Shown here: piece after piece, positions 4,778 to 31,193 of the stretch
Position numbering within the stretch: the first letter of the stretch is position 1
Layout: every line of letters starts with the position of its first letter
From: Ectocarpus siliculosus
Lineage: Eukaryota > Sar > Phaeophyceae > Ectocarpales > Ectocarpaceae
Direction: 5' to 3'
NCBI GenBank assembly: GCA_000310025.1
Contig: FN649751.1
Coordinates: forward strand, 1,521,142 to 1,552,334
DNA length: 31,193 bases
Notes under the pieces: generated by a model
Told to the model about the DNA's origin: nothing
Seen by the model: the letters and a program-made list of their open reading frames with translations, nothing else
The model's database searches: none
Translations under genes and position numbers: made by a program

Positions 4778-4849
4778 CGTGTTGCCTTGACCACCAACAC
4801 GGCGGACGCTCGTCGTGTTGCCTTGATACTACCAACACGGACGCTCGTC
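4778..4849 (+). repeat. 36-bp tandem duplication
   Basis: Two adjacent 36-base units (4778-4813 and 4814-4849) both start CGTGTTGCCTTGA and end with CCAACACGG...GACGCTCGT. They differ by a few substitutions and small balancing indels. No function is apparent. Confidence 0.8.
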
Positions 4850-5995
4850 TGGGTCGCCGAACGTATGCATATGACGGTCGCGATATGCTTCCAGAGTCAG
4901 AGCGCTTATTGTGCTTGCTCTGCTTGAGCGCGGGCGGCGATACGAGCAGAGGTCCACGGCCTGCATGCAGCGTATGCCTTTCGTTATGGTGCTGATGGCC
5001 AAGTAGCGCGTGCCCGTCAAACCAATCACCATGCAGCTACAAGTATGATACCTAAAATCTTTATTAATAGTTGCTTGCCACATCCAGGCTGCGAGAAAAA
5101 TTCGACGAAGTTATTTCAGATAAAAAGAACGCGGTTCCCGTATCGCCTCGTTGTGGAAACAACGGGCCTCCAATTTTTGGGAGGAACGTGGCTGGCCGAA
5201 GCACACACCTCGCCAATACTGCTGAAACAGCATCCAGACAGGTGCTTGATTTGGGGCCGCCAACAAACCGCGAGCCTCGCCCAAAAAAACAAGAGGTTCT
5301 TCGCTGTAAGTCCTGATGGAGAACGTATTTTGTGCGTTATATTTTTCTTTCCAAGGTCTTCGGTGTGTAGCCATCGTGTCGGGTCCTTCAACTCTTCCCT
5401 TCACGACGTACCACAACCAACCACGTTTGCCGCATCTCAACCGTAGTCTATTGGTTGGTTCGGCATGTACCATGCATACGTGTATAGTATGTTGTTCAGT
5501 TGTGCTTGTGGGGGGTGGCGTATTGTTCGCCTACACCGACCGTTGATTTGATGTGCCCCAAAATAGACCAACGTTTTCAGACGACAAACACACCTTGCCT
5601 GAGCGAGGGCGCTCCAGCCAACTTATCATCTCAATCGAATTGTTTGCTCGACTTGGTACGATCGGTCCTAAAAAAAACAACAAGAAAAACAATGTCCTCT
5701 CAAAAATACACGAACAATTTTCGCATCCTTTCGCCTATTGTAGACACAATGCAGCACCACCAACCAGGCGTAGGCGACCATGTCCTAGGTCAATTACTCA
5801 ACACAAGAACGATGGTGGGACGGCACAGATTCTCATCCCTACCTACGGTGACCGCGCAACAGCATCCATGTACGTATCTCCCGCACTCGTTAACAATTAA
5901 TAATGCCTTCGTAGACAACGCGACACTCACTTCTACCGTGCCATTAACTAACTACGTGGTCTTTTGTTCTTTATCACGACCGCCCCCTCCCAAAG

Positions 5996-6396
5996 TGCTC
6001 CTCGCTATTTTACACGACCGACGGCATGGTTTCAACCACATGGTACAGAGCTCTTCCAAGCGCCAAGACAGGTGCATCGTATGTCCGCACTAACGCACGG
6101 TTTCCGAGCACACTGCTGTGAGCTTGACGCGAGAAAGAGACTAAATACCGTTCTTTGTGGAGATCAAACCAAGTTGATTCCCGTGTATTCTGCCCCCACC
6201 CCCACAGAAAAACAATTGCTCCTCGCCCAGTGGGTGGCAGAGTCTCCTATGGTGTGTATTCAACCACATTGTACAGAGATTGCTAGCGCCAAGACGGGTG
6301 CTTCGTAGTTCCGCACGAATGAACGTACGGGTTCCGAGCACACCGTGACTCTTGACGCGAGAAGAGACCACAACATGGAGATTCAACCAAGGAGCA
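5996..6396 (+). repeat. Degenerate direct repeat, about 221-228 bp apart
   Basis: Copy 1 (about 5996-6170) and copy 2 (about 6217-6396) share TGCTCCTCGC, CAACCACAT.GTACAGAG, AGCGCCAAGAC.GGTGC, TTCCGAGCACAC and CTTGACGCGAGAA in the same order. By eye they are about 70-75% identical, with short indels. The unit has no coding sign and may be an old local duplication or a decayed mobile element. Confidence 0.65.
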
Positions 6397-7202: not shown

Positions 7203-8924
7203 CTATCTATCTATGTACACGAATAGTTGTTTAATGCGTAAGAAGACAAGAGGTACAGTAGCGACTACACACAGAAGGCCAAGCACCAGCACGCGAAGAA
7301 CAATCACCTGCGGGGAGGGCCCGTCCACCAGCTCGTCGATCACATCGCAGACGGCCCAGAGGGTGTTGAACCGCGAAGAGTCGCAGGGAGTGTCGGCGTA
7401 GGCTTGCTTAAATTCCAGCAGGGAGTCAAACGCGTCCACCTCGGCCTGCTTCATTCTTTTTCTGAGGGACTCTAGCGCTGCTGATGCCGCTGTCTCCGCC
7501 TTGTCGTGCTCGCGGGCGAGCTGGTCCCGCTCCGCCTTCTTCGTGAGGAGGGTCTTCTGTTCTGCTTCGAAGTTTTTCCTGGCCTCCTGCAGGTGCGACT
7601 GCCTCTGGAGCCAAATCAACTCATAGATATCATCCTCCGAGGCCTGCTGTAAGTCGCTGAAGGGCATCGGCTTCCGCTCCTGCCTGGCCCGCTTCTTGCA
7701 CTGCTCCCGGCAGGGCTCGTCATAAAGCTGGGACCCCTCATAAATGGCGGACGCACCGACGTACTGCATGGCGCGGTAATGTCTGTTGGCACGCGCCTTG
7801 TCCGCGATGGCCTCCTGCTCGCGGGCCTCGGCGATCGCCTTCTGAAGATCCTCCGATGCGGCGGCGACTTGCTGCGCGTATATTTTGGCCCTGGCGGCGA
7901 GGGCGGCGGTAGAGGCTTCATGTTCCTTCATGGCCGCGTAGAGGGCCTCGTCTTTGGGTGTGGTGTGTTGGTGCTGCTGCTCCGCCTGAGGGCACGGGCT
8001 GTCCTTCACCGCGCTCTCGTATCCCTGAACGAGAATCGACACCAACAGGTCCTCTTCCGCCTGCAGATCGAGCGTGAACAGTGACACACATCCGGGAGGA
8101 GTACATTGTATGGGGTCAGTTTGAGGTTGAAGATGGAGGTTATGTGCAGGGCAGATCGGTCACACGGTGGTATGTGCGTGGCATGTGCGTTGGTTGAGAG
8201 GCTGTGCGAGGTTGTGGCTCAATTTCATGGACATAAAAATGAAATCTCGATTGCTCCAACTGATTCATTCGTGCCAGGAGGTTGGTGTGTTTCGGATTCA
8301 GTCGTGCGCGTGTGGACTGCTTGGAGGATTGCGGGAAAAGGGGAGAGCCCGGATATGAACGACAGCAATTGGATGGTCCCGGGGGAAATGGTGTTTTCAT
8401 GTGGGCACCAATGATGGACACGCGGCAATCACAAGCGAGGGACAGCAGTGGGCCAGCGCGAGTGTGAGGTTTGCTCGGTAGCCGTGTGGTACGACAGGAG
8501 CCTATGGTCAGTGGTTTCCTCCGCGCTGCGTGTGACCTCAACAGCTGCTGGTCGCTCCCCGTAGCCAACCCTTCAACCCCTGACGAATCCTTGCTTTTAA
8601 TGGATCTCTCCAAGAGTGCCAGCCATCCGTCCCCAAAAGCAACCACTTGGGCCAGCAGCCAACCCAAGTCTCTCAGCGAGGGGGAAAGATAAATGATAAC
8701 CTACAGCGGCAGTGGAATCTCACCTCGGTATAGTACTGGATCCGGTGCCTCTTACACGGCCGGTTGGCCTCGAGGTCGAAGGCGAGGTCATCCCCATCCA
8801 GCTCGTTCCTCATCCGCTTGTTGGGGATGGTGCGGCCGTTGTTGACAGAGGCCAGGCGCATGGCCAAGGTAGCGCTTGTGGTGATCTTGAAGGTGGAGGT
8901 GAAAGTGGCAGTAGTAGCAGGCAT
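7203..8924 (-). CDS. Hypothetical coiled-coil protein with possible C-terminal membrane anchor (2 exons)
   Basis: Exon 1 is 8924-8724 (67 residues from the ATG at 8924) and ends at donor GAG|GTGAGA. Exon 2 starts at 8060 after acceptor CTGCAG and runs to a stop at 7203. Both are phase 0, giving 352 residues. Exon 1 is Thr-rich at the N-terminus, then basic and acidic (IPNKRMRNELDGDD). Exon 2 is mostly long charged helix rich in Ala, Glu, Gln and Lys with heptad-like spacing, typical of a coiled coil, with a short Cys-containing insert (EPCREQCKKRARQE). The last 35 residues contain about 22 hydrophobic ones (VIVLRVLVLGLLCVVATVPL) and a short polar tail, which would suit a tail-anchored protein. 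A donor-like CAG|GTGATT lies just before this segment, so the anchor could instead be intronic. An in-frame TAG upstream of the ATG at 8924 supports that start unless an acceptor near 8989 adds an upstream exon. I do not recognise the family. Confidence 0.6.
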
Positions 8925-9365
8925 GATGACTCGAAGAGTATCCCGGTGGTGAGGAGGCTCGAAGTCGGCGATGTACAGCAGTCCAGTCTAGCGTCTGCTG
9001 AGAGGAGAGCGCGAGAGAGGAATGAGTGTGTGGGCCGGGAGCACCCACCGCCACGAGAGGGAGAAGGGGGTTCGTGCAATGCGTGTTGGATACCAGCCCC
9101 CCTACCCCCCCGTCTCTCTGCATCGCTCTCTTGGGACGCTCGATCGGCGGTCATGTGTGTGTGAGGGAAACAGCATGTACGATTGTTTACGGTACACATC
9201 CCCGTAGTCGAGACGCTGTGTGGATGGACTGGACGTGCTGGGCGTGGCGGCTGAGCTCTTGCCGGCATTGGAGGAGATAGATGCTGGTACGTGGTGCAAC
9301 GCATCGAACAGACATCCTCGTTTCGGTGAGGAGAGGTTCGGAGTAAAGGTGAGAATGAGAGTCAA

Positions 9366-9393
9366 CTGCTGCTGCTGCTGCTGCTGCTGCTGC
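9366..9393 (+). repeat. (CTG)9 triplet microsatellite
   Basis: Nine CTG units plus one base. More CTGCTG words follow at about 9423-9433. On the other strand this reads as a poly-Gln run in an otherwise unconvincing frame. Confidence 0.9.
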
Positions 9394-11117
9394 GATCCGT
9401 CATTCATGACACATTGTGTGCAACTGCTGCTGCATGCTGCCGTGCTGCCGCTTGGTCTGCACAGTACAGCAGTCCACCTATGTAGTCTATAGTGTGCGGG
9501 TTCAGTCGAGAAGGAAGAGTTTGCATCATCAACACCAACCGATATTGGCCAACATGGCACGAACTCGATTCGAAGCAAACGCACAGATTTTGAATTTCTG
9601 GGTCTGGGCGGCAAAAGCAAAACGGTGTTCATGGGATGATATCGTCCGTCCGTCCAGACAGAGCGGATGAATGCCCACGCCGCGGTGCAAGGCACAACGG
9701 TTCTGGTGCTACCTACCCATCCATGTGGTATTGTCGCCTTGTGCACGATATTCCCCAGCTTTCGGGGTGACTCCGGTTGCTGTATTGCTGTGCATCTCCG
9801 ATCAAGTACACCTGCACGTCCGCTTGTCTCAGCGTGTCCGTTCCTGTCATGTTCATCCTGTCTCATCAAAAAGATTACAGAGACATTACAGATCACGAGA
9901 GAGCGGGAGGCGACGAGGTCAAGCAAGCGAGATGAACACACAGCACGGGGCCAAACCGGATGGATCGGTTGGAGTGCAAGGGTCTACCATACTCGTCGAA
10001 CTCTCAGATGATGGCCACAGAAGCTCAGGTGCTTGCCGTGCAGGCGTCCTATCCGAACAGATCAGCAACTCGAGCAACACTGACGACCTGCGGCGAGTCT
10101 ATTCGAGGATCCTGGAAATCAATTTGAATTTTTGCAGCGATTTTTTTAGAGAATGTAGGTTGTGCTTGACCGCCCTCTGAAGGCGCAGCCACGAGAACAA
10201 AGAGGCGCAATTCACCACACGGTCTGCATAGCGACATATCGAAAGTGTAGCAGCTGGTTTGGGCGGAATCAGCCATGACTCCGGGCCGTGAGCCTGACCC
10301 ACAAATTCACGTGTAGCTCTCCCGCTCACCCCCTCTCCCATCTCCTGGTCCTGGTCTGTTCGGTGAGGTATGCAGGGTACACTGGTTCCCGTGCCGGTTC
10401 GCGACCGGAACCGTCAGCGAATGTAAGTAGTTATTGACTGCAGCTGCATGCTGCATGTGCTAATGTGCTTGAGTGTGCTCGGTGCCAGCGTGCCAGCTGC
10501 TCTATGTACATTGGCCGTTGTTGTTGAGCTTCTGATCTCCGAACTCCGAACTCCGGTGGTGTGATGGGTGAGGACGGGCTGGGTGATGTGATGTGCCTCT
10601 CTGCCGGTCGTGCTTTCCGTCCGGCGTGCTCCACAGCCTTCCGCACCAACTTGTCCACTTACTTGTGCACTTGGGTCGGCCTTCTGCCGTCTGCTGTGTC
10701 GTGCTCCTGCTCGTGCCTACTTCTGTACGGACAAGGCTTGCTGCAAACCCTGCCCGGCGACTTCACACCCCATGAAAAGGAGGCAAGCCTGTGGAGTGGA
10801 CCATCAAGCATGTTACCTGTACAGCAGGTGAGGCACGGGGTGGAACTCCGCTGTCTTGCTGTCTTTTTGTGTCCTGTTGACGGAGCATTTTCACCATCAC
10901 CCGCCCTGTTGGACTTCCTGCACCAGCCCACCTAGAGCCTTGAGTCTCTTGTACAGCTGTATTGCATTGTTGTGCCTGGTGCTGGTATGCGGCAGAGCTT
11001 CTTGTCCTGAAGACATATGAACCAACTGTGGTTACACCACAGAGGAAATCCTCGGCAGTGCATCTACAATAGCGTGCCCTTACGCTGGTTTTTAAGGGGG
11101 GGCAGAATAGGGGTGTT

Positions 11118-11244
11118 GACGCTGGCTCTTTTTCTCATACTTTAATCCAACATAAAGAAAGAAAGCAACCTTCCCGCCTGAACCTGGTAATTAGTACTGG
11201 TATCAGTAGAGGACACCATCAAGAGGCGTCGTGCGTGCTGGCAA
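11118..11244 (+). repeat. Dispersed repeat, copy 1
   Basis: It begins GACGCTGGCTCTT and ends AGTAGAGGACAC.AT.AAGAGGCGTCGTG.GTGCTGGCA. The same landmarks occur in order and at the same spacing at 20895-21019, about 9.8 kb away in the same orientation. Flanking sequence is not similar, so this looks like a transposed element of about 125 bases rather than a segmental duplication. Confidence 0.75.
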
Positions 11245-13277
11245 AGTACACGGTTGGCGTTGGCTGTAACCTGGTAGTACAGTAGTAGAAGGCAAAAATT
11301 TCGGCATCTGCTCCTTCGGGCACGTCACACGCTAACCTCTCCGTTCACCACTTCTCTGTCTCTTCCGCTGTACACCCGCCCCCCGGTCAGGTCAAACCAC
11401 GTAGGTCTCCTACGTTCAGATGTGCGAGGTTGAAGGAGTTCGGGTAGATGGGGTGGGCTGCACATCCTTTGCCGCTTTCAAGCCAGCCTTGGACGTTGGC
11501 AGCTTCTCCATCCCCGAAGACTGGTGCAAGGTGTGAGGCTCGAAACTGTCTAGTGGTTGCGTGGTTCTTGTGGCCCAGCCCAGTCCCGTCTTGGGCGCAT
11601 GTGGTTGGTGTCGTGGTGGCTTCCCTATCATACAGAAGGCGCGTCTTTTTCTTGTTGCCTTACTGTCGTTGCCGTTTCGGTTTGAATCGTCTGTCGTTCC
11701 TCTTGGGTAGGCTAACGCAAAACTGTGTAGGGTTCCAGCCTGCATGACACATGAAAGACAGTAGCCATAATACGTTCGCGCTAAGACCTTTCTCTCTCTC
11801 TGCGGGTGACCCAAGGCAGAAGATAACGCCCTTTGTCCAATTAATTACAGGAATATCCGCTGCTAATGCTGTTGTTGTTGGTTGTTGTTGTGTTTACTGT
11901 GTAAGTGTTCCTGGTGGTGGATGCGAGGGAGGCAGACAAGAGCACGACAAACCAGCAGCGTCGTCATGATGATGGCGTAGTGCTGCTTTTCTAGTCCCTC
12001 TACTACTGCTGCATCCCCCTGTGATGTGTGTAGCATCATATCTAAGCTGCACAAACCATCAGCAGCGAACACACAGAGATCAAGTGGACTAGAACTCCAC
12101 GGCGCGATAGAAAGTCCGCCGAGCATGACGTGCTTTCAGAGTTCGAGGGTCACATGGAAAATAAAGCTGCTGCAACGGCTGTGCCTGCTCTGGGTTTCGC
12201 TCGTACCTGCCCTTTTTCAAAGCAGTTTGGACAGATGCGCTAACACACCCGCCTTCGCCCGCCCACACCCGCCCGGGTAAGCTGCGTGCCCGTTTCTCGG
12301 GCGGCGGAATATCTCGATGGCCTAACCTATCAAAAGCCACAGCAATGGCAGTGCGGCCCAGGAATAAAAGAAATGCTCAAACCTACGTTCGAAAGCACTC
12401 ATGATCAGTGATCACAAGACACCAACACTACAGAGATGCCCCCCCAGCCCTTTCCCTCATGTGCCTGTAAAGTAGTGGTCCCGGTATGCCGGTGCGGTCC
12501 AGCCGATGTCACCGGCATGATAGCAGGCCACCGGCATCGTATAAATTCGGCCTATTCAAGGTCTGAGAAGTCGGCGATGATGCCGGTACCGGCACTACTC
12601 AGGAAATCATCGAGTATTTCAGGACGAAAACATGAGCACACACCAGCATATTGTACGCTAAGCATCACGTTGTAGGGAAGAAAGTGGATGCCGTGGCAGG
12701 AGGGTTGGTAACCTGCCGCGCTCGAAAATCAGGCACCTTTTTGTGTGCTGTACACTGCAGCGTCTGTGCACAAACTCCTCTTGTTACTTTGTTATTTTGA
12801 CCCGATGCCTCCATACGACAGTACAGACTATGTCGTAGCGGAAAACATCGGAAGAAAAACAAAGCAAAAAACCAACAACTCTCTGAACACACTGACTTAT
12901 ACTTTTTTTTGCAGCAACATCCGGAATACGAACATCTGAATGCACCCATTTTTTCCTAACTGGTCCCGCCTACGTTGCATGCCCCCTCCAACCAGAATAT
13001 TGACACGGTAATTTACTGTACCACACAATACCCGACGAACAAACAATGTCCGACTGCTGGTGCTGTCGCTCCATGCAAGGTTTGGTGCAAGACACAAAGC
13101 TTTGTGCGGCGTGGGTTCGCGCCAATGACCAAGCCTTGTACAGACCGGCCCTCGGCTCTCGGGACACTCGCTTCTCGAGACAGCACCGCTTGGGCGATTG
13201 CTCCTTCCCCGGCGGGTGTTGCGAACAGAGCACCGGCCGCATTTAGGCACCCGTGCGCCCAACACAGAAAGTCTTGT

Positions 13278-13280
<3 letters not shown>

Positions 13281-13320
<40 letters not shown>
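13281..13320 (+). repeat. (CT)20 microsatellite upstream of candidate exon
   Basis: Forty uninterrupted bases of CT. The tract merges into the polypyrimidine stretch leading to the acceptor TTTGCCCAG at 13370-13378. Confidence 0.95.
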
Positions 13321-13326
<6 letters not shown>

Positions 13327-13378
13327 TGCTCTACCCCTCTTCTTGGTCTCGCTTGCTACCTCATATCCATTTGCCCAG

Positions 13379-13737
13379 TCCCCTGGGTCGGATGAGACGG
13401 ACCCACCCGGGGACGCCGACGGCACCGCCGGTTCGGATGACTCGGGGTCGGCGGCAACGCACACCGGTGCGAGGAAGTTGCCAACTTCGTACCGAGTATT
13501 AGTATCCGTCCACGGGCACGGCATGAAGAGGATCAGAGTGTGTCCGACACGTGCCCAAACATTTTTGGCACGCAGCAACTTGTTTAGGCCCGCTTACAGG
13601 CACAGAAAACCGGTATTTTAACAGATGCGCAGACGAATGCTGGGCGCCCTTGAGCCTTTGGCACGCTGAACTCGTAGCGGAAGAGCGGGTCAGTCACGAT
13701 ACAGAAAACGAAAAGAGAGAAGAAGGAGAGCGAGGGA

Positions 13738-13796
<59 letters not shown>

Positions 13797-14063
13797 TCCA
13801 TAGACAGAACTCCTAACAAGTGTTCCTCGTGTTTCGCGCTGTTTTGTGCGAGTGTGACCTAGCTCTCTCTCTCTGTCTGTCTCTTCTCTCTCTCTCCCGT
13901 GTTCTGCCAGGCGCAAACGACGGCTCGGCGTCGAGCAATCCCCCCCTATGGACGACGATGACGACGACGAATACGCGTACACCTACCCGGAGACGGGGAC
14001 GACGAAGCCTGCTCGGATGATGAGCGAGCCGACGATCGGACCAAGGGCCGAGCTGCGGAAGAG
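13379..14063 (+). CDS. Candidate exons of an acidic Ser/Gly-rich protein (partial, unidentified)
   Basis: Exon a (13379 to about 13466) follows a strong pyrimidine-rich acceptor and encodes an acidic, Gly/Ser/Asp-rich segment (SPGSDETDPPGDADG). A donor CCG|GTGCGAG at 13466/13467 gives phase 1. Exon b (13911-14063) follows TTCTGCCAG and ends at AAGAG|GTATGGG. In the phase set by exon a it reads ANDGSASSNPP and then becomes Thr/Arg-rich. One extra C in the seven-C run at 13940-13946 would switch it to a more protein-like frame with an Asp run and YAYTYPETGTTKP. I therefore suspect a one-base homopolymer error or a frameshift. A further possible exon of similar composition lies at about 14610-14731 but its phase does not match. 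I do not recognise the family; the start and end of the gene are not found. Confidence 0.35.
13742..13794 (+). repeat. (GA)n microsatellite
   Basis: Fifty-three bases of uninterrupted GA lie in the putative intron between candidate exons a and b. The tract is exactly complementary to the CT tract at 13281-13320. Confidence 0.95.
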
Positions 14064-14734
14064 GTATGGGTACTTACTGGCAGTTCGAATTGAACCAGGG
14101 AATACGCTGTCATGTATATGCCGCGACACCCGAGTGCATCTAACTGTTGCGCTTGTGCGCGCGCCGTCATGGTTACTATGGCCAAGACACAGACAACATT
14201 CGTAGGCGAGTCTCCGTACCGTTCAGGACCTACCGTATACGACACAAGATAGCACACACCCTGGACCGATTTTCAAAGCTCGATTTCTCATCAGCAGAAA
14301 GAGTCGCAGCGCCGAAAGTGGGGGTGTTGAAGCCGTCTCGTCGAGAGCTTTCCGAAAACGTTTCGTTTCGTTTATGCATCCTCTTCGTCGTGGCGTAGTC
14401 GAGCTTTGAAAATCAGTCTAGGGGGTGTGTTATCTTGTGTCGTATACGGTATCTGTGTAGTTGCAAAAGAAACTAGGGTGGACCGTCGGTGACATGACCT
14501 GCCTAGCCTTTGAAGGCTCGTTCCGCAACACTTTTTGCTCTTGCACCCAACTAGCTTCGCCCAATTTATCACACCCTGTGGTTCGACTTGTCCCGCAGGC
14601 TGCACGTCGGGAAGAGTTGGAGGTGGTCAGGTGGTCACGGCGGAGAGGCGAAAGGATGTGCCACTCGGCGAAGGGGACGGTTCGACAAGCAAGGGCTCGT
14701 TGTCCGCCGGGGGCACAAGCAGTGAAGGTGTGAG

Positions 14735-14863
14735 CTACACATTTTTCGATAAGTAGATCTCTGACATAATAAAACAGGACACAACAGACAGATACACCAA
14801 CTTGATGAGCGTCTCGCCCATGGTTGTGCCGGGGACCGCAAAGACCTGAACGAAGACCTTCAT
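14735..14863 (-). pseudogene. Short hydrophobic ORF remnant within a foldback arm
   Basis: This is a 42-codon frame from ATG at 14863 to a stop at 14735. It contains FVQVFAVPGTTMGETLIKLV and a hydrophobic C-terminal part. The segment encoding PGTTMGETLIKLVYLSVV is repeated in inverted orientation at 14912-14965, where a one-base difference (CATGGGCGAG versus CATCGCGAG) breaks the frame. I infer a fragment of a once-coding sequence that was duplicated in inverted orientation. The family is not recognised. Confidence 0.35.
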
Positions 14864-14965
14864 GTTGCAGGTAAAGCACCCGTTGCTTAGCCCCTGTCTG
14901 CACCGCGGTGTCGGCACAACCATCGCGAGACGCTCATCAAGTTGGTGTATCTGTCTGTTGTGCCC
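14777..14965. repeat. Foldback: 54-55 bp near-perfect inverted repeat, 80-bp loop
   Basis: The left arm 14777-14831 (starting GGACACAACAGACAGATACA) is the near-exact reverse complement of the right arm 14912-14965 (ending GTATCTGTCTGTTGTGCCC). I count about three differences. Weaker A/T-rich complementarity continues outward for some 15 bases on both sides. The loop is 14832-14911. A transcript across it would form a stable hairpin. Confidence 0.9.
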
Positions 14966-15599
14966 TTTTTTATTTTTATGAGGTCCAAAAAATGTACAAC
15001 GATTTCCCGGGGATCCCCTAGCATCCACAACCGTTTTAGTTCGGCGGCGCGTCGATTCCAAACAGACGCAGGAACGTTCAATGCAATGTATGGGGCTCGA
15101 TGTGATGCGAGATTTGCGAGGTTGTCCTCCTCTTGACAAGGGTTGATATCGCAACGGATACGCACACAGTAGGTACACCCATCTACCCATCTGACTGGGT
15201 GGGCGTCTGACTGACCCAGATGCTTTCGGCAACCTCGACCTCGCTGCTGCCCATCTGTCCTCACGTGCCCTGCTCTATGACAGCCCCAGTTCCTCGAGAA
15301 CGAGAGGAGAGAGAGCTGTCATGCGCCCTTTACGCTGGCCGACGCGGCTCAGAAGGTGCAGCTACATTTCGGAAACGCGGGCAGCTTGTGTGAAAAAGCC
15401 ATCAGTTTGCTCCACTGCCCACCACCGCTCGCTACCTTTTTTTGTGCGGGGTTGCGAATAAAATTCATGTGTGCTCCATGTACGCCGGGTCGGAAATGAT
15501 GGTGCGGGCGAGTGCTTTCCCGTGGTGTGTCCATCTACAAAGATTTATCCGTTGCGCCCGTGACTGGCTAGCGCTAAACGACACGAACCTCGCCTGCAG

Positions 15600-15698
15600 G
15601 TAGACTCTCTTCCTCTGGCGTCAGCGGGGCTGGGCATCCACGACGACTTCGTTGGGAGCGGCGGAGTCCTGGGAGTGGGGTTCGATCTTGGGCTGCAG
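15600..15698 (+). CDS. Candidate 33-codon exon, unidentified
   Basis: The segment lies between acceptor GCCTGCAG and a GC-type donor CTGCAG|GCAAGT. It is open in phase 0 and encodes a Gly-rich protein-like stretch (LASAGLGIHDDF, GVLGVGFDLGLQ). The donor context is perfect apart from GC in place of GT, and the same CAG|GCAAG context is used in the GH2 gene near 29.2 kb. A foldback begins only nine bases after the donor. I cannot connect it in phase with neighbouring candidate exons. Confidence 0.35.
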
Positions 15699-15707
15699 GC
15701 AAGTAAT

Positions 15708-15990
15708 AGGTGTCAATCGACATGTATTTTCCGCTAGAGCTTACGGTTCACCGTGGCGAGTACCTGTGGAACTTACGGTACCTCGCGTCGCAAACTCGGA
15801 TCAGGGTCGTCGTTCACAGTGGAACCCGTGCCGGCAGCGGACACTACATCGCTTTTGTGCGTGCGCGAGGGCGGTGGCTGTGTTTGCACCAGTGACGCAG
15901 GCGTGACGCAGGTGGGTCTCACAGCGTTGTCAATCAATCGCCACGGTGAACCGTAAGCTCTAGAGACACATACAGCTCGATTGGCACCTA
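15708..15990. repeat. Foldback enclosing a deubiquitinase fragment
   Basis: The left arm 15708-15759 and right arm 15938-15990 are inverted copies. The 24 bases AGAGCTTACGGTTCACC plus GTGGCGA match exactly, and the outer part (GTAGGTGYCAATCGA type) matches with several changes. The 178 bases between them carry a USP-like coding fragment. The outer motif recurs at 17629-17655 and 18256-18280 beside the larger foldback, linking the two structures. Confidence 0.85.
15758..15915 (+). pseudogene. USP-type deubiquitinase C-terminal fragment, copy 1 (decayed)
   Basis: The frame beginning upstream at 15710 reads through LWNLRYLASQTRIRVVV and then HSGTRAGSGHYIAFVR, followed by GRWLCLHQ and a stop. 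The H-x-G-x(5)-G-H-Y pattern matches the second USP/UCH signature that carries the catalytic His. In intact family members W.C.DD.RV follows; here DAGVTQVG occurs in another frame just after the stop, so a frameshift has broken the fragment. Only this end of the catalytic domain is present, without the N-terminal Cys box. It lies between the two arms of a foldback. Family assignment is from the motif by eye. Confidence 0.6.
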
Positions 15991-16434
15991 CATACAGGGC
16001 CTCCCCGTTGTCATCTGCGTGTGTAAACGTCGGTGTCAATCTTCCGCGCCGAGCGCCAGTACCGCTGCTGTGCTTGAGTGAAATCATGATGCCTGGCACC
16101 GGTGCTCCGTCGGGTCTGACTCGCTCTCCTCCTTGCACCACTCGCTTCTCCCGGGATTTCGATATCGATATATGCACAGCATTGCCCCTAGGAGGCGTTC
16201 GACCGCCTCTTCGGTCGGATTGGCGACGAGGTGACTGCTGCCGGATTTTCGCCCCCCCCCCCCTCCTCTCTGGAAGTAATAACACCAGAAAATAAATTAA
16301 GTCATACGTAGCTGTCATCCGTACGCAAGGAAGTAAGGGACAAGATCCCGAACACCCTTACCAGGATGCAGCTCCCCCTTCATGGGACTCCCCAAATCCC
16401 TCACGGTGCTTCGCGCTTGGTGATGTGAGACCCT

Positions 16435-16690
16435 GGTCCGGGGAAACCCCGGCGTGCTCCGTCCCGGCTTTGTAGGGATGGGGGGTCAATGGTTTAATGA
16501 TTACGGCATCCCCGACTATGGGTACCCCCCCCCCCCCCCTCCTTTGGCAGAACCCAGATTTTGGTCCGGGGAGAACCCGGCGTGTTCCGTCCCGGCTTTG
16601 TAGGGGTGGGAGGTCAATGGTTTAAGGATTACGGCAGCCAAGATTTTGAGTACCCCCCCCCCCCCCCCGCTTTGGCAGCCGCCACTCTGA
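16435..16690 (+). repeat. 128-bp tandem repeat (2 units) with poly-C tails
   Basis: Unit 1 (16435-16562) and unit 2 (from 16563) both run GGTCCGGGGA...CCGGCGTG, TCCGTCCCGGCTTTGTAGGG, GGTCAATGGTTTAA, GATTACGGCA, GTAC plus a long C run, then CTTTGGCAG. Degenerate single copies occur at 921-982 and 317-372. The structure suggests a short interspersed element family in which the C run acts as an unstable tail. Confidence 0.85.
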
Positions 16691-16994
16691 CGGCGACCAC
16701 CAAGGTGAGCGTCGGGAAACAAGCATCCGATCGTGCAGAGAGAGAGAGGGAGGGAGTCGGACTTGGAGGGCAGGGTAGCGTTTTCGGTGGCCTCTGGAAT
16801 AGAGTCGATTCTTTTTGGACCTCCCCAGATTACTTGTTTTTTGCTCCTGGCTCTAACGAAGCAAGCAGCAGCGCACGCATGCACTATCCCGCGCCACTTT
16901 ACGCGAGTCACGATCATTTACAACCATCACAACCACACGACGAACAGGTAGGGACCCGCACCGGCAGTGCTGAAGTTGACCCTCAAATGCACAG

Positions 16995-17270
16995 GCGAAG
17001 TGCACCTACGGCCTGGAGCGCGACCCCGGCAGCAGGACCAGAGACACCAGCGTCCGGGTGTCGTTCCCCAGTAACGACGCCACCACGAAAACCCACCGAT
17101 TGCCCCTGGACGACACTACCAAACCGGAGACGGCGGACAACTCAGGCTGTGTTGAATTTGTGGTGGCGTCATTTTTGGGTAACGCTGGTGTCTCTGGTCC
17201 TGCTGCCGAGGTCGCACAGTCACAGCAGTGCTCAAGCGACACCGCTGTACTCAGCTCAGCTTACCACCAG
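16995..17270 (+). CDS. Candidate 92-codon exon, unidentified
   Basis: It is bounded by acceptor GCACAG and donor CACCAG|GTGCGAG, is open in phase 0, and has an in-frame TGA shortly upstream of the acceptor. It encodes a mixed hydrophilic sequence (AKCTYGLERDPGSRTRD, VRVSFPSNDATTKTHRLPLD, CVEFVVASFLGNAGVSG). An inverted repeat of about 56-67 bases lies wholly inside it, so its two ends are encoded by complementary DNA. That argues for a duplicated fragment rather than a normal exon. No family recognised. Confidence 0.35.
17020..17215. repeat. Foldback: inverted repeat inside a candidate exon
   Basis: The left arm is 17020-17086 and the right arm 17160-17215. The outer 33 bases (GCGACC.CGGCAGCAGGACC and on to AGACACCAGCG) match with one change, and the inner 11 (GACGCCACCAC) match exactly. 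The left arm has an extra 11 bases between these blocks. The loop is about 73 bases. Confidence 0.9.
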
Positions 17271-17628
17271 GTGCGAGAAAGCCCGTCGGTAGTCACAAGA
17301 CAGTCGCCCGCCACTAGGAGCCATCGACGACGTTGGCCGTACCCGCGTACGTGGTGGCTCATGAAGAAAATACGCGAAAAATAAGAGAGGGAAAATTGTA
17401 AAACGACGTGTGCACAGTGTGTGTGAGACATGCGATCCATAACCTTGCAAGAGAACATAGGTTCGCCCCAAGAAGTGGAGATTTTTCGTCGGTGCTGCGC
17501 CCGTGCTGAGGTCGGCTTGCGCGCGGCTCATGCGGCGAACAAGGCGTACCCAGACGAAAAAATAACAGGGGAGAGTGACGCATGCCGACGAAAAGAGCCC
17601 CCAGCGAGGCAACGTATTTTCGTGGTTC

Positions 17629-18279
17629 ACTCGATTGACACCTACATAGGAGAACAATATGTTGTCGACCGGGCGGGGGCTTGCTTCCCGGTACAATCGC
17701 AACAGGGGCGGGGGGGGTTCGGTTAAACGAACGAGCCCCTCTCCTCCTTCCCATTTTCCCGACCCGTTTCCTCTTGAGAGTGCGCCCGCTAAGTCCGTGA
17801 ACACCCCGCCTCACCCCCGTACGTCGTATCCTTGTTTTTGGAGGAGTGTTCATCCCAGGTGAAACCCCATTCGCCTGGCGTTCTTCGTCCCATCCGGCAT
17901 CGCCCGTCTAACGGCTAGCCATAGATCGGTTGCAGGTAGCTGGCGTTGCAGGTGTCTGTGGATCACAGCTGCCTGCAACGCTCGTGGTAGCCGTTAGACG
18001 GGCGATGCCGGACGGGACGAAGAACGCCCGGCGGATGGGGTTTGACCGGACGGCCACGCTCCGCCAGAACCAGGGATCCGACGTCCGGGGGTGACTGCGG
18101 GGTGGCCAACGAGTTGGCTGGCGCACTCTCAAGAGGAAACGGGTCGGGAAAATGGGAAGGAGGAGAGGGGTTCGTTCGTTCGACCGACCACCCCCCGTCC
18201 CTGTTATGATTGTACCGGGTAGCAAGCCCCCGCCCGGTCGATACCGTTGAACTCCTCTCTAGGTTTAAATCGATATGTG
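17629..18279. repeat. Large palindromic foldback, arms about 290 bp
   Basis: The left arm (about 17629-17920) and right arm (about 17990-18279) are reverse complements, by eye about 80-85% over their length. There are near-identical blocks such as CGACCGGGCGGGGGCTTGCT, CCCATTTTCCCGACCCGTTT and CATCGCCCGTCTAACGG. The apex (about 17935-17985) is itself partly self-complementary (GCGTTGCAGG...CCTGCAACGC), leaving almost no loop. The outer ends carry the ATGTAGGTGTCAATCGA-type motif shared with the 15.7 kb foldback. No transposase frame is present inside, so if mobile it would be non-autonomous. Confidence 0.9.
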
Positions 18280-18282
18280 GTT

Positions 18283-18455
18283 GCCTCTGGAGCTTACGGT
18301 ACCTCGTGTCGCAAACTCGGACCAGGGTCGTCGTTCCACAATGCAATGGAACGCGCGCAGACAGCGGGCACTACATCGCTTTTGTGCGTGAACGAGGAGG
18401 CGGCGACGGGGATTGCACCGACGACACAAGAGTGACGCAGGCGGGCACAAAACCA
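18283..18455 (+). pseudogene. USP-type deubiquitinase C-terminal fragment, copy 2 (decayed)
   Basis: This is a direct repeat of the fragment at 15758-15915, about 2.5 kb downstream and in the same orientation. Its frame reads SLRYLVSQTRTRVVV, then NGTRADSGHYIAFVRERG, then CTDDTRVTQAG. It keeps the GHY triplet and, unlike copy 1, the in-frame DD.RV motif that follows the His box in USP enzymes. The His and Gly before it (HSG in copy 1) are disrupted by an insertion. It abuts the outer end of the large foldback. Taken together the two copies support the family assignment better than either alone. Confidence 0.6.
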
Positions 18456-18745
18456 AACCCTCTGTAGGAGGACAAAGGCGGAAGGTGTTTGTAGGTAACG
18501 GGCTCGCCGTTGGAAGCCACCCCGGTCAATGCGTCTCCTTGCCGTCCGCCGCACAGAGCGGGCAGTGCGTTCTGACGTCATTCTTGTCGGACGCCTCCCT
18601 TAAAACGACAAGCCAGTGAAGTCAAGTCGCCACGACTGTTTTTTTTGTTTGTGGTCTTTGTTGAGGTTGGTATCATTGCTTACAATCGATCTTGCATGGC
18701 TCCTTCGATAGGACTCTCTTGTTTTGGAAGTTCTGTTAATTCTTC

Positions 18746-18842
18746 GCCAATCCAGCCACATAGGCCCCCCCCCCCCCCCCGCGCGCGCCCCATTGTTAAT
18801 TGTTGGCCGTGGTTGGTCGCGGATGTTGTCAAGCGGTACCGG
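18746..18842 (+). repeat. Direct repeat, copy 1 (about 485 bp spacing)
   Basis: A C/GC-rich block followed by CCCATTGTTAATTGTTGGCCG and TTGGTCGCGGATGTTGTCAAG. The last 21 bases are identical in copy 2. The candidate first exon at 18917 lies between the two copies. Confidence 0.8.
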
Positions 18843-18916
18843 CGTTCGATATAATTTGTTTTGCCGGGCTGACACCTCCGCCCCTCGCTCGCTCGCTCGC
18901 CCCCCATCCCCACGCA

Positions 18917-19025
18917 ATGGCCTCATCTAATGCAGCGAACGTCTCGTGGGTGAAGTACGGCGGGGTAGTGCCAATTGGAACCCCGGGTGCCACCAAGATC
19001 GCCGAGGGAGGTGCCGCGCTCAAGG
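18917..19025 (+). CDS. Candidate first exon (36 codons plus 1 base), unidentified
   Basis: The ATG at 18917 follows a C-rich stretch and encodes MASSNAANVSWVKYGGVVPI and then GTPGATKIAEGGAALK, ending at donor AAGG|GTGAGAG. The composition looks like real protein. The next plausible acceptor (TTTACAG at 19356-19362) is in phase but reaches a stop after about 23 codons, just before the inverted repeat at 19550. The gene may therefore be interrupted or use another exon. Family not recognised. Confidence 0.4.
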
Positions 19026-19105
19026 GTGAGAGAGAACCTCCGTGTGTCTGTCTGCTGGTTGTCACACTTGTTGCTTGACGTCGCCGCTACTGTTGTGGTT
19101 GTGGA

Positions 19106-19152
19106 TGTTGTTGTTGTTGTTGTTGTTGTTGTTGTCGTTGTTGTTGTTGTTG
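19106..19152 (+). repeat. (GTT)n triplet microsatellite
   Basis: About 15 GTT/TTG units with one GTC interruption, in the putative intron after the 18917 exon. Frames across it give artefactual Val, Leu or Gln runs. Confidence 0.9.
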
Positions 19153-19228
19153 CTGCTTCCTTTTATGGTGGTGATGGTTGCCTTTTCTGTTTGCGATTTG
19201 CCTTCGAGCACCTCGGTGCCAGTCGTTA

Positions 19229-19325
19229 CTCCCTCGCCCACGTAGCCTCCCAGGCCCCGCCCGCCCCTGCGCCCTATTGTAAAGTGCTGGCCGCCGATTG
19301 GTCGCGGATGTTGTCAAGTGATACG
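19229..19325 (+). repeat. Direct repeat, copy 2
   Basis: It matches 18746-18842 (GCCC.ATTGT...TGGCCG..., then TTGGTCGCGGATGTTGTCAAG exactly). The copies are about 485 bases apart, with substitutions mostly in the C-rich half. Confidence 0.8.
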
Positions 19326-19549
19326 AGTGTGTTGTCGATGCCCGTCTTCGACGCATTTACAGGGTTTGATGCTTCGGGGTGTGCTGGCCCCTCACAGAAC
19401 AATCTATGGAGTACCAACGTTACACGCACGGCATGATGGTCAGGTCATCGGGGCTCGTAGCGACACGATCGACCGTTTCAACTCGTTGGCCCGCAGCGAC
19501 CAACCAAGACCCCAAGAAGAAGGCGGAGGGGGCCAGATCTGGCCCGGGG

Positions 19550-20075
19550 ACCTTCACACCCTCGCCGGTTTTGCACCTCTTGTTTCCCCGCGCCGCCAAG
19601 TGCCTCTCTTGCTTCATCACCACCACCTCCCTCGCCTTGTCCACGATCCCTTGCGGGATGCCATTGCTCCTTGGGAGCTTTCTGCAGTCGCTCCCGGAGC
19701 TGTCTCTCAAGAGGGCCACGCCGGAGACGTTGATCACGGGCCCCGTTTCCTGTGCGGNNNNNNNNNNNNNNNNNNNNNNNNNNNNNNNNNNNNNNNNNNN
19801 NNNNNNNNNNNNNNNNNNNNNNNNNNNNNNNNNNNNNNNNNNNNNNNNNNNNNNNNNGCCGGAGACGTTGATCACGGAGCCGTTTCCTGGCCAACATCTC
19901 CGACGTGGCCCTCTTGTGCGACAGCTCCGGGAGCGACTGCAGAAAGCTCCCAAGGAGCAAATGGCATCCCGCAAGGGATCGTGGACAAGGCGAGGAAGGT
20001 GGCGATGGTAAGGCCGGAGAGGTACTGGGCGGCATGTGGCAACAAGAGGTGCAAACCCGGCGGGGTGTGAAGGTC
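19550..20075. repeat. Inverted duplication with an assembly gap at its centre
   Basis: The left arm 19550-19757 is the reverse complement of the right arm (about 19875-20075). Long near-identical blocks include CTTGTCCACGATCCCTTGCG and GGGAGCTTTCTGCAGTCGCT. The words GCCGGAGACGTTGATCACGG occur in direct orientation at both gap edges, so the apex has both inverted and direct repetition. Each arm, read on its own strand, keeps a similar protein frame (GIPQGIVDKAR then NKRCK), suggesting duplication of a coding fragment. That protein is not recognised. Confidence 0.9.
19758..19857. other. Assembly gap (100 N)
   Basis: Exactly 100 N, the usual placeholder for a gap of unknown length. It sits at the apex of an inverted duplication, where assembly or cloning commonly fails. 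Confidence 0.99.
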
Positions 20076-21496
20076 GTAAGTGAGGGTGTGGACAACGAGG
20101 TGGAGTCGGGCCAGGACAGCGTATTCCGGCAGCGGTTCGTTAGGTGATGGGGCATCCCCTGACCGAGTTCGCTCATGGTTGATTGTGCTGGAGGGGTGTT
20201 ATGCCATGGAATGGGAGGGACACGTTGAAGTCAGGGGGGGGGCGATCGAGACTTGGGGGTGTGTATAGTTTCCCGCAGGAGAGAGGATTCGCAGATTTCG
20301 ATTAACACTTTGTTTGTGTTCCAGAGGCCCGTGATGCCGCGCAAGCCACACGATGATGAGGAGAGAGTGTGCAGTAGACACGAGGCAAGCGGCGAACCTC
20401 CAACACGTTGATCGGTCGGCGTCAAGCGTTTGGTGTATACTGGGTGGCTCACAACTGCTTCGCAAGCGCGAGGCCCCTTTTTTGCCGCCCTGCGGGTCTG
20501 TCAAGCATGTGTTCTTCCCTTGATTTGAGTGACTTTTCATTCTAAAGATAGGTTTGTTCAGCGGAAGTTGATTTGTAGGGAAATCTCCTCGTGGTCCCTG
20601 AGCGTCTTCCGTAGGCTAGCTATACGGATGGTGCTTGTACACATGCGAAAAAACAGGTACTTTTGCGCACGTGGACTACGTGTAGGTGGGGGCCCTGACA
20701 GGTCTGGTAGAGCCATCTGCGGCGCCGATCGCGTTCATCATCGGCATAGTCACACTCCTGCTGTAGGCCGTATCGGGCATGGCTTCCTTCCCGCTCTTTG
20801 ACAGATATATCGATCTTGGAACAGGTTCCAATTTTGCAGTCAAACGGCGCAATTATCGTCGTGATGCCTGAAGGATTGAAGAACAAGCCATTTTGACGCT
20901 GGCTCTTATGTTAATCCTTAAATCCAATAATATAAGGAAAGCAACCCGTTGTTCAGGTTCTATGAACTCTACAGTCACCAGTAGAGGACACAATGAAGAG
21001 GCGTCGTGTGTGCTGGCACATTCAGGTTTGCTACTGGAGCTGAAATATCGAAGGTCGCAGCAGCCTCTGAAAGCAGTCCGAAATCTGCGCCTCAACCTGC
21101 CGGAACGACACACTTTTCACAACCGTGCTCACCGCCACAGACCGCAAAATCCTAAACAGAGGGTCCTCAGCAGTAGATAGTGGCATCAGCTACTGCAGTC
21201 AACCCGCAGTTCAGGAGATTGGGGTCAGTGGCGGCGAGCACCAGCCGTACAAGACACAGGATGTCGGTCATATTTGCGGAGATCTGCCGATATTGAACGA
21301 CCCGCGATCTCACCACCCAATCAGCAGATTTGAGCGATTTCCAAGAGCCAAAAATACGTTTGTAGCTGCCAGCAAAGTTTCCATGAACGCTTTCCCGTTC
21401 CTTCTTGCGTTTTTACCTTGCCGCCGGAGTGTAAAAACTATCCTGCTTCCTCTGCACTCTAAATTCGATGCCAAAATTGTACACAGCTTTCTCTCT
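20076..21496. other. Gene-poor stretch with one dispersed repeat
   Basis: Apart from the repeat copy at 20895-21019 I see no frame with protein-like sequence and splice support. Any 3' UTR of the minus-strand gene ending near 21.5 kb would lie at its right end. Confidence 0.45.
20895..21019 (+). repeat. Dispersed repeat, copy 2
   Basis: Same element as 11118-11244. Both contain GACGCTGGCTCTT, then an A-rich GGAAAGCAACC or GAAAGCAACC segment, then AGTAGAGGACAC and GAAGAGGCGTCGTG.GTGCTGG. Identity is about 75% by eye. Confidence 0.75.
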
Positions 21497-24400
21497 TTAT
21501 CGTTTCAAGCCAAGGAGAACCCACAGACAGCATGGTTTTCTGTTGGCGTTGCGCTTCTGTCTCACAAGGTAGTTGTCTAATCTATTGTTTATCCGCCCCC
21601 AAGCGCGCAGTCCGAGCGTTCTCCGCTGAACCAGCTCCTGCAGCATCAACGAGGGGAATTTTCGGTGTGGGAAGAACTTGGCGCGAGGGAAAGAAAAAGG
21701 GCAATGCATAGTGACGCAGGCGCAAACGAAACGGTCCGGGCTGGCCTAGGAGGTTGCACCGCCCCCCCCCCCATGTACCCCCCGGATCTGCGTCCACATT
21801 CCGCCGCATTCTGGACGTGATCGAACGCTATCGACCGTCGGAAGCACTCTTTCACCCGCGAATAAATAAATCTGGGAGGATTTTGCTCCGCCGACAACGA
21901 AACGAGTTCTTGGGTGGAAAACGGACGTGAAAAATGGCGCTTGTACGAGCTTTGTACGCTCTGACGGCACCAAAAGCGTGGGCACCAACAATTTCGTAGT
22001 CAACGCCAAACCCGCCCAAAAGAACGCCTTGAAGCGTGGGTGCTTTTGAATTTGCTTGTACTGACGACACGCATGCCTGTCCAAATTGATAGTTGGGGAT
22101 GTCATGCAGGCTATAGGGTGCGCACATTTTTTCACCCGGCGACCAGCGCCCAACCTCTGATAAAACAAAAAAGGGGGACTCTTGAGCTACCCCAACTTCG
22201 CTTAGTGTGTGCTTCAGGGAAAATCTGTCGCGAAAGCAAAGGATCGGCCCCCCTCCTACCAACGGCGCTCGTTTCGCGACGATCAGTTTTGGGAGTGCCT
22301 CCTCGGTACGAAGAAAATATCTGTGGCCCGTTCTTTACCGGTACCAGTATGTACGCGTGTGTTCATTGAACACTATTATTAGGCAAGCAACAAACGAGCA
22401 CTAACGGCACCTGTTTCGTACGTCTCCGTCTGCTTCCATCACATGCGCAACAATTCTGGTATATGCCCAGCAGGTGGCCTTTGGAACGACTCGCACCTAC
22501 GACACCCTTCCTGACAATGTTGCACTGCTCACCTGGACGCGCAACGCAGGGTAAAGGATCATGGGATACTTGTGGTGCATGTCTTGGAAGAAGTCGAGGG
22601 TCATGATGAGGTCCCCGTTCTGGTGAGACTTGTTTATGTCCTCCAGCTGCTGGGAGAACGCCGGCCAGAAGGCGTCGTTCGAGAGGTGGAGGCTCTTCGC
22701 GAGCCGGTCCAGCTCACCCACCTCGAGCTCTCCCGCTTCCGTCACCTTGCAGGTGTTGAAGATGAAATCCACCACTTCTCTCTGTCGTTGAGTGGCGGGG
22801 GAAGGGGTCATGCAGGTTGTGCGGGGGGGAGATGTTTCGTTCAGAACAAGGGGGAGGGGGGGGGGGCGGGGACGAGGCTGACGGCCCATGGGATGAGGTA
22901 TGTGCTTCTTTGTCCACAGGCGGGGATCTTATCGTAGCTGACACTATACTTCCCTTTGTCGAAGTAAGCGACGTGGGGTTTGGTAGTCGGTTATCATTTT
23001 TTTCATAACTGTCCCGGAGAAAGCGAGTGGTTTTCCATGGCCGGACAGCGTTTACATTCTAAGCAGAGTTGTCGTTGACCCTGCTCTCACCTCTGACATG
23101 AGACAGAGGCCAATACACCCAAACACCCACGTGGCGCGGTTCATCTCACCGGCGACAGCGTGGGCGTACAATCGGTTGCTCGCCCAAAGAACCTGCGAAC
23201 ACCGAGGGTCACAGAGCGTTGGAAAGATGGTAGTAGTGTGCTTGTGTCTCGTTTCCGGTTTCGAGAAACAAGCGTGCAGGTTGTCAAACCCTCGCGTCGA
23301 CGTTCACCTCTCGTGTTACCCTCCCAATTCACCACCACTACTTTGTCGATGATAGACGGGGATCCAACCTGGATCACCACACGGCGTAAAGTTTAGCGAG
23401 AGTCGGAACGGGCACAACCCCGGTCGGCGTATATACGCCAAAGCTGGCGAGATTCTTGTACTCGCCAGTTCAACAATTCTTGGGTTGTAGTTGGAGGTAG
23501 ACACGAAACTTCAGGCACAGCGGGTTTCCAGCCCTAAGGCTACACCACGGCGCTAGGCCTCGCTAGGTCCAACCCACCCCTAAACCCTAACCCTAACCCT
23601 AACCCTAACCCTCACCCTAACCCTAACCCTAACCCTAACCCTAACCCTAACCCCAAGCTAGGTTGTTGTGCAGTGGGTAGGCCCAGGTCGCTGTGCCGAG
23701 CCACTGGAGGGTGCAAGAATCTCGCCAGCTCTGGCGTATACACGCGCGGCGGGCACAACCCTAAATAGCTGTCTTCCTCGTTGGTAAGCTGTTCAACAAT
23801 ACTTCCAACCGCGCGCATATCTCTTCCAGAGCACTTCCATCGATCAAGGTCCCAACGCTGTCTACGACTCACCTCTCTCATGAAGAGATACGGCGATATG
23901 CCGAGCGCGGCCGTGAACAAGGACACCCGTACCCCCTTGCCGTCGGCCTTCTTCGCCCCAACGAGGGGGCCGGCGTCTCCCGCTTCGTCCTCTTCCATGC
24001 GGGCAAGCGCGTTGAACATCACGTCTCGGTACACGTCCACGATGCTCGCTAGGTGAGACTCCTTGATCCCGGCTTTCCTCATCCTCTTGTTTCGCGGCAT
24101 GTTGAGGATGCCGAGGAGCTCTTGCCTAGGCGCCCGGTTCCAGGCAACGAATGTTGTATGCAGGTGGGCGACCACAACGTAGCAAGATTACTAACAGGCG
24201 TGCCCGCTCGTCTGGAGGACACTGCGAGGTAGATCGCGATGGATACCTTCACCAGTCTTTTTGGCGCCACAATATTCACGAGCAACCCACAACACACGCT
24301 AATTTTTTCACGCAGGAACAAGGCATTGGCTGCTACCACATACCCTTTGTTATTCTTAAAGAACGGCAGCGAGAGTCTTCGTGCGCGCTCGATGAAAAAC

Positions 24401-27019: not shown

Positions 27020-31193
<4,174 letters not shown>

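Follow-up and report, generated by a model that had tools for sequence, protein, structure and literature searches.

Foldbacks in and beside an apparently decayed protease-like gene duplicate of the brown alga Ectocarpus siliculosus, and their likely origin by local template switching

Template-switch events are usually described as short, under about 0.3 kb. The hairpins they leave consist of a reverse-complement copy beside its source, and homogenisation of the arms and inversion of the spacer are outcomes described in two reports (PMC8794818, PMC8604942). The same architecture is found in a stretch of 31,193 nucleotides of the brown alga Ectocarpus siliculosus (GenBank assembly GCA_000310025.1, contig FN649751.1, here C26, positions 1,521,142 to 1,552,334 of the forward strand), referred to below as the window. 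Five foldbacks cluster there within 5.34 kb, each with a reverse-complement copy close to its source according to self-BLAST and arm alignments. Here the copies reach about 0.3 kb, and several lie inside one gene duplicate. Four of the five look to be contained in an apparently decayed paralogue of a ubiquitin-specific-protease-like gene, as far as sequence comparison goes. Repeated local template switching in this unconstrained protease-like duplicate best explains the cluster, with a probability of roughly 0.7. The kind of event is already known, and the paralogue-resolved set is a clear instance of it in a brown alga; a narrow literature search for template switching in brown algae returned nothing related by title.

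In plants, new microRNA (miRNA) genes reportedly arise from inverted copies of protein-coding pieces, a process known as the inverted-duplication model. Inverted gene pieces are likewise found here, but the longest identical run that they share with the relative of the gene on contig C457 is 16 bases. Inverted arms are also common to miniature inverted-repeat transposable elements (MITEs) and other palindromic elements, which differ from these foldbacks in two respects: dispersed copies of the five were not detected, and the arms of foldbacks 1 and 4 come from the local gene. The miRNA hairpins of Ectocarpus, as treated in two reports, are genomic hairpins of a brown alga too (PMC4513859, PMC12867755), and the mean miRNA foldback given in one of them is 170 nucleotides (PMC4513859). 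Foldback 1 (207 bases) comes near this mean, whereas the spacers of foldbacks 2, 3 and 5 are long, as are the arms of foldback 4.

Comparison with a colinear relative

All five foldbacks listed by a first-pass annotation of the window were recovered at their places by self-BLAST (Table 1). Their arms align over 93, 53, 34, 314 and 183 columns, with 86, 87, 97, 85 and 90% identity over aligned columns (foldbacks 1 to 5), and foldbacks of at least 50 bits were absent from all ten sequences simulated from the window with a first-order Markov model. The inventory was incomplete, three others (14231-14451, 21125-21241 and 23427-23745) having been overlooked.

The genome searched comprises 189.5 Mb in 492 contigs. 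A short partial match of foldback 4 led to a relative on contig C457, from which C457:63544-69600 (6057 bases) was taken as the comparison sequence; its reverse complement, C457rc, is numbered from position 1 at 69600. Successive matches of about 60-77% identity, apparently non-coding stretches included, make C457rc colinear with window 13070-18467, and no match continues the colinearity past window 18467 within C457rc 4799-6057. No inverted self-match was found in the C457 sequence at E 0.01 over its 6057 bases.

The C457 copy carries Cys-box-like, finger and His-box exons in the order of ubiquitin-specific proteases, with profile scores that stay under the cut-off. The first of these exons is named for the motif GL-N-G--TC, which we take to be that of the Cys box. 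The finger exon holds two CxxC pairs and matches UCH_1 at E=0.013, below the Pfam cut-off. The His-box exon matches UCH at E=1.9e-4, about 2 bits below, and 10 of its 11 weak matches in a PDB search (E 0.25-0.98) are ubiquitin hydrolases. A His-box copy within foldback 2 reaches UCH (PF00443) at E=1.4e-4, 1.9 bits below the cut-off. The window copy departs from the protease order in that its Cys-box-like exon is mainly inverted. Six-frame Pfam scans, of an insensitive type that missed the UCH piece of foldback 2, gave no family at E 0.1 in window 8001-22999 (stops read as X) and only TFIIA, below cut-off (E=0.017), in the C457 sequence. Window 13.07-18.47 kb is probably an old, inactive duplicate of a ubiquitin-specific-protease-like gene. 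The C457 copy, whose flanks and apparent introns are diverged but alignable, may have arisen by simple duplication or may be of another nature, for example a sex-linked counterpart.

Both arms of foldback 4 match one stretch, about C457rc 4294-4633. The right arm scores 156 in sense and the left arm 133 in antisense, against best scores of 67 and 63 among the 200 mononucleotide shuffles made for each alignment; in sense the left arm scores 40, below its best shuffle of 58. One stretch has thus become two, one of them inverted, and the left arm (about 0.3 kb) is the addition. The left flank aligns as far as window 17639, which corresponds to C457rc 4243 (75, best shuffle 48). Since the two arms are 85% alike and about 60% like C457, the copying postdates the split of the paralogues.

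Foldback 2 is a 294-base insertion, bordered by C457rc 2536-3020 (window 15216-15704) and C457rc 3029-3300 (window 15999-16276), which nearly abut in C457. A direct copy of the His-box-exon region (about 18260-18445) comes first in it, followed by an inverted one of the beginning of that region (about 18311-18260). In the direct part, 15763-15916 matches 18284-18445 and 15707-15747 matches 18260-18300, both at 80%, while in the inverted part 15939-15990 matches 18311-18260 at 73%. The middle of the insertion also matches C457 (85, best shuffle 47).

The Cys-box-like exon of foldback 1 matches C457 in antisense, both as protein (BLASTP E=4e-11, 19 of 43 residues identical) and as DNA (80, best shuffle 51). 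The order seen would result if the exon end had been copied in inverted form and the spacer had then been inverted. For foldback 3, the stretch 17019-17269 is 54 bases longer than its counterpart (250 against 196), a surplus weakly consistent with addition of the right arm; the exon comparison with C457 is itself weak (E=0.008).

With polarity taken from this single paralogue, C457 would represent the state before copying in the case of foldbacks 2 and 4 and, in the main, of foldback 1, and less clearly in that of foldback 3. The first-pass annotation had proposed that nearby, partly coding pieces were duplicated in inverted form; the comparison supports this for foldbacks 2 and 4 and mostly for foldback 1, weakly for foldback 3, and gives nothing for foldback 5. 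Its description of the foldbacks as independent holds in part, as foldbacks 2 and 4 have a common edge and a common gene piece, the two pairs of the direct part given above.

A duplicate freed from constraint would gather local copy errors. During replication or repair, the growing strand would jump to the opposite strand or to a nearby template, copy tens to hundreds of bases backwards and then switch back. Three types of product would follow: an inverted copy adjoining the sequence from which it was made (foldback 4 and probably foldback 3), such a copy together with an inverted spacer (foldback 1), and an insertion in which a direct piece is chained to an inverted one (foldback 2). Foldback 5 probably arose like foldbacks 1-4. 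Later switches, or conversion from arm to arm, may re-match the arms in patches. The structures, the searches that returned no further copies, the colinear paralogue without detected foldbacks and the match of both foldback 4 arms to one stretch of it are observations; which way the change ran, the molecular step of template switching and the inactivity of the gene are inferences.

Copy number, assembly and density

Genome searches, in which only the best candidates were scored and very common words were skipped, found no further copies of the five foldbacks; strongly diverged copies could escape. The queries (for foldback 5, only its left part, 19500-19757) returned their own places with both arms, and in addition a related piece of the window for foldback 2 and the short partial C457 match for foldback 4. 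The same search finds families where they are present. An element of about 1.5 kb in a control stretch (L016:8111-9602), which is present in dozens of copies and whose inverted arms measure about 540 bases, gave 123 matches, and the 14231-14451 element gave 85, with 40 of 2323 first-look candidates scored and full-length copies among those listed at 88-92%. These families act as positive controls for the null result on the five foldbacks. At their sensitivity, these searches bear out the earlier statement that the foldbacks do not stem from one element, and a transposon family for the five is unsupported.

It is quite unlikely that the foldbacks are decayed MITEs of different families that landed close together. 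Multicopy palindromic elements are present in the genome (the two above), as is a dispersed poly-C repeat at 16267-16541, and copies as diverged as the C457 gene could escape the searches. However, no dispersed copies of the five were detected, where the true families gave 123 and 85 matches, and foldbacks 1 and 4 have arms made of local gene pieces that are present once in the paralogue. The 14231-14451 element is apparently absent from the C457 copy, since the colinear chain holds no match to 14293-14512; another of its copies, L023:3915-4135, makes up the control foldback L023:3910-4140. Parts of the poly-C repeat match control stretches L022-L025 at 81-89%, and a unit of 128 bases occurs twice in tandem at 16434-16678.

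Inverted copies could also stem from misassembly, through false joins or chimeric reads. In foldback 5 the loop includes a 100-N gap (19758-19857) with a direct repeat on both sides (19720-19752 and 19858-19889, 91%), so that its length in the assembly is nominal; the repeat of about 33 bases bordering the gap points to a tandem repeat that was collapsed or to contig ends left unmerged. An artefact of one sequence would show no differences between arms, but 7 to 46 mismatches separate them in four of the five foldbacks, with one mismatch in foldback 3. The gap, moreover, touches foldback 5 only, and an assembly artefact is a very improbable source of the cluster.

Density was compared with 23 stretches of 10 kb at hand-picked round coordinates on larger contigs, a small and non-random sample. 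Five of these stretches are on C26, three of them at most about 50 kb from the window, and one of the three (L027) has two foldbacks. The sample contains 14 foldbacks of at least 50 bits, or 0.33 expected per 5.34 kb, so that the five reported correspond to about 15 times the sampled mean. The controls are overdispersed, with at least one foldback in 8 of the 23 stretches and four inside 6 kb of L019. Genome-wide, clusters of five or more are expected about 0.4-0.8 times under a Poisson model and about 45 times under a negative binomial fitted to only these 23 overdispersed stretches. The cluster is dense, yet not demonstrably beyond the norm of this genome. Something peculiar to this place, as first supposed, is not evident from the density, given that single and clustered foldbacks occur elsewhere among the controls. 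Nor are foldbacks without detected family members confined to the window, as a genome search with the control foldback L023:6895-7224 returned only its own place. The genome-wide copy check covered three of the 14 control foldbacks (L016:8111-9602, L023:6895-7224 and L023:3910-4140), and all 14 were compared with the retrieved sequence set only, a weak test.

Arm evolution and the small-RNA question

The distribution of arm mismatches was tested in 15 of 22 foldbacks, comprising all eight of the window and seven of the 14 controls (omitting those of L016, both of L027, both of L035, L019:3668 and that of L025). Palindromes were split at the centre, so that loop columns count as arm columns in foldbacks 1 and 4. 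The longest mismatch-free run exceeds random scatter in foldback 1 (38 columns, p 0.0098) and foldback 4 (51 columns, p 0.0054). In foldback 5, 75 aligned columns are free of mismatches, a one-base gap being uncounted, and none of 5000 random arrangements had a run as long. Foldback 2 is borderline (p 0.046) and foldback 3 not significant (p 0.41). In all, five of the 15 fall below p 0.05, namely foldbacks 1, 2, 4 and 5 and L023:3910-4140. Re-matching of arms by template switching or conversion is an outcome described in PMC8604942 and PMC8794818.

Another explanation is that the foldbacks are selected hairpin-RNA loci, sources of miRNAs or small interfering RNAs (siRNAs), with the inverted gene pieces possibly serving to silence related genes. 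Genomic hairpins are the presumed origin of brown-alga miRNAs according to PMC4513859, and 295 putative miRNAs are given for Ectocarpus in PMC12867755, from a palindrome-based step together with earlier methods. A Piwi-domain gene is present in the genome, on contig C2, and a small-RNA pathway may be available. Predicted folds are strong, for instance -535 kcal/mol for foldback 4, a value that has no shuffle baseline (foldback 5 was left out because of its gap). Selection for pairing of a particular strand would be expected to favour G-U pairs, but the strand-specific G-U bias of mismatches is marginal (simulated p=0.052 over 14 foldbacks, one of the 15 having no mismatch; 0 of 21 individually significant), and such selection was set aside as an explanation. 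Exact matches between the five foldbacks and C457 extend over no more than 16 bases, too short for perfect targeting of the C457 gene by a 21-nucleotide siRNA, and no Rfam family reaches its gathering score in the window. Selected hairpin-RNA loci are an unlikely account of the cluster.

A wider proposal, itself doubtful, is that in brown-alga genomes unusually active template switching writes long single-locus hairpins into unconstrained duplicates and thereby feeds young miRNA or siRNA loci. If true, the duplicate in the window would be a nursery of hairpin loci caught mid-process. The origin of new hairpin genes is an open question, and brown-alga genomic hairpins are named as a source by deduction in PMC4513859. 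The presence in one genome of the duplicate and of its relative, in which no foldback was detected, suggests piece by piece that local gene sequence copied backwards gives rise to hairpins. The importance of this locus would grow if small-RNA data or a genome-wide scan linked foldbacks to the birth of hairpin genes; the comparison of paralogue pairs can be extended genome-wide to hairpin frequency and to overlap with small-RNA loci.

Several observations weigh against local template switching in a decayed protease-like duplicate. Polarity rests on one diverged paralogue, and loss of arms in C457 is conceivable, though its exon order fits a protease. At the level of single events, the sense alignment of foldback 1 to C457 scores 45, below its best shuffle of 48; the two edges of foldback 2 and the right arm of foldback 3 alone do not rise above shuffles when compared with C457; and foldback 5 lies outside the C457-homologous block and is without comparison sequence. 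As to the gene, searches of Pfam and PDB gave no protease match for the Cys-box exon. The His-box exon that lies in place in the window matches nothing in Pfam at E 0.1 and still has an open frame, which makes the degree of decay uncertain. A protein search with a His-box piece (E 0.01) found the two window copies and missed the C457 copy, showing that diverged relatives can escape genome searches. Finally, arm patchiness is not specific, since the high-copy L023:3910-4140 is patchy too (p 0.0084; one of the seven controls tested), and patchy identity could reflect selection for pairing.

Feature coordinates and neighbouring sequences

Table 1. Positions of the foldbacks and associated features in the window
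Feature	Position	Strand	Remarks
Foldback 1	14768-14974		Cys-box-like exon antisense (14899-14772); exon end also in sense as right arm
Foldback 2	15705-15998 (self-BLAST 15707-15990)	+	Insertion relative to C457, between C457rc 3020 and 3029
Foldback 3	17020-17215		34-base arms within finger-like exon
Foldback 4	17631-18273		Right arm in place, left arm an inverted copy; both match about C457rc 4294-4633
Foldback 5	19549-20075		Arms 19549-19732 and 19892-20075, 90% identical; 100-N gap in loop
Small diverged palindrome	21125-21241		74%; self-BLAST
Foldback with 43-base arms	23427-23745		88%; self-BLAST
High-copy palindromic MITE-like element, about 221 bases	14231-14451		Genome search
His-box-like exon, in place	18284-18445	+	Probably the sequence copied into foldback 2
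Diverged, apparently decayed ubiquitin-specific-protease-like paralogue, apparent introns included	13070-18467	+	Colinear with C457:68961-64803, minus strand

Elsewhere in the window, about 12.5 CCCTAA units form a telomere-like interstitial array at 23578-23653, far from the contig end. Searches for tRNAs and for Rubisco gave no match. A piece of a glycoside hydrolase family 2 N-terminal domain is found at 29924-30400 (Pfam E=4e-12). The genome's light-harvesting genes mark the host as a brown alga: pieces of such genes gave 87 matches, one of which agrees at 151 of 156 residues with FCP17 in PDB entry 9YGV, whose source is named in PMC13219633 as the giant kelp Macrocystis pyrifera.

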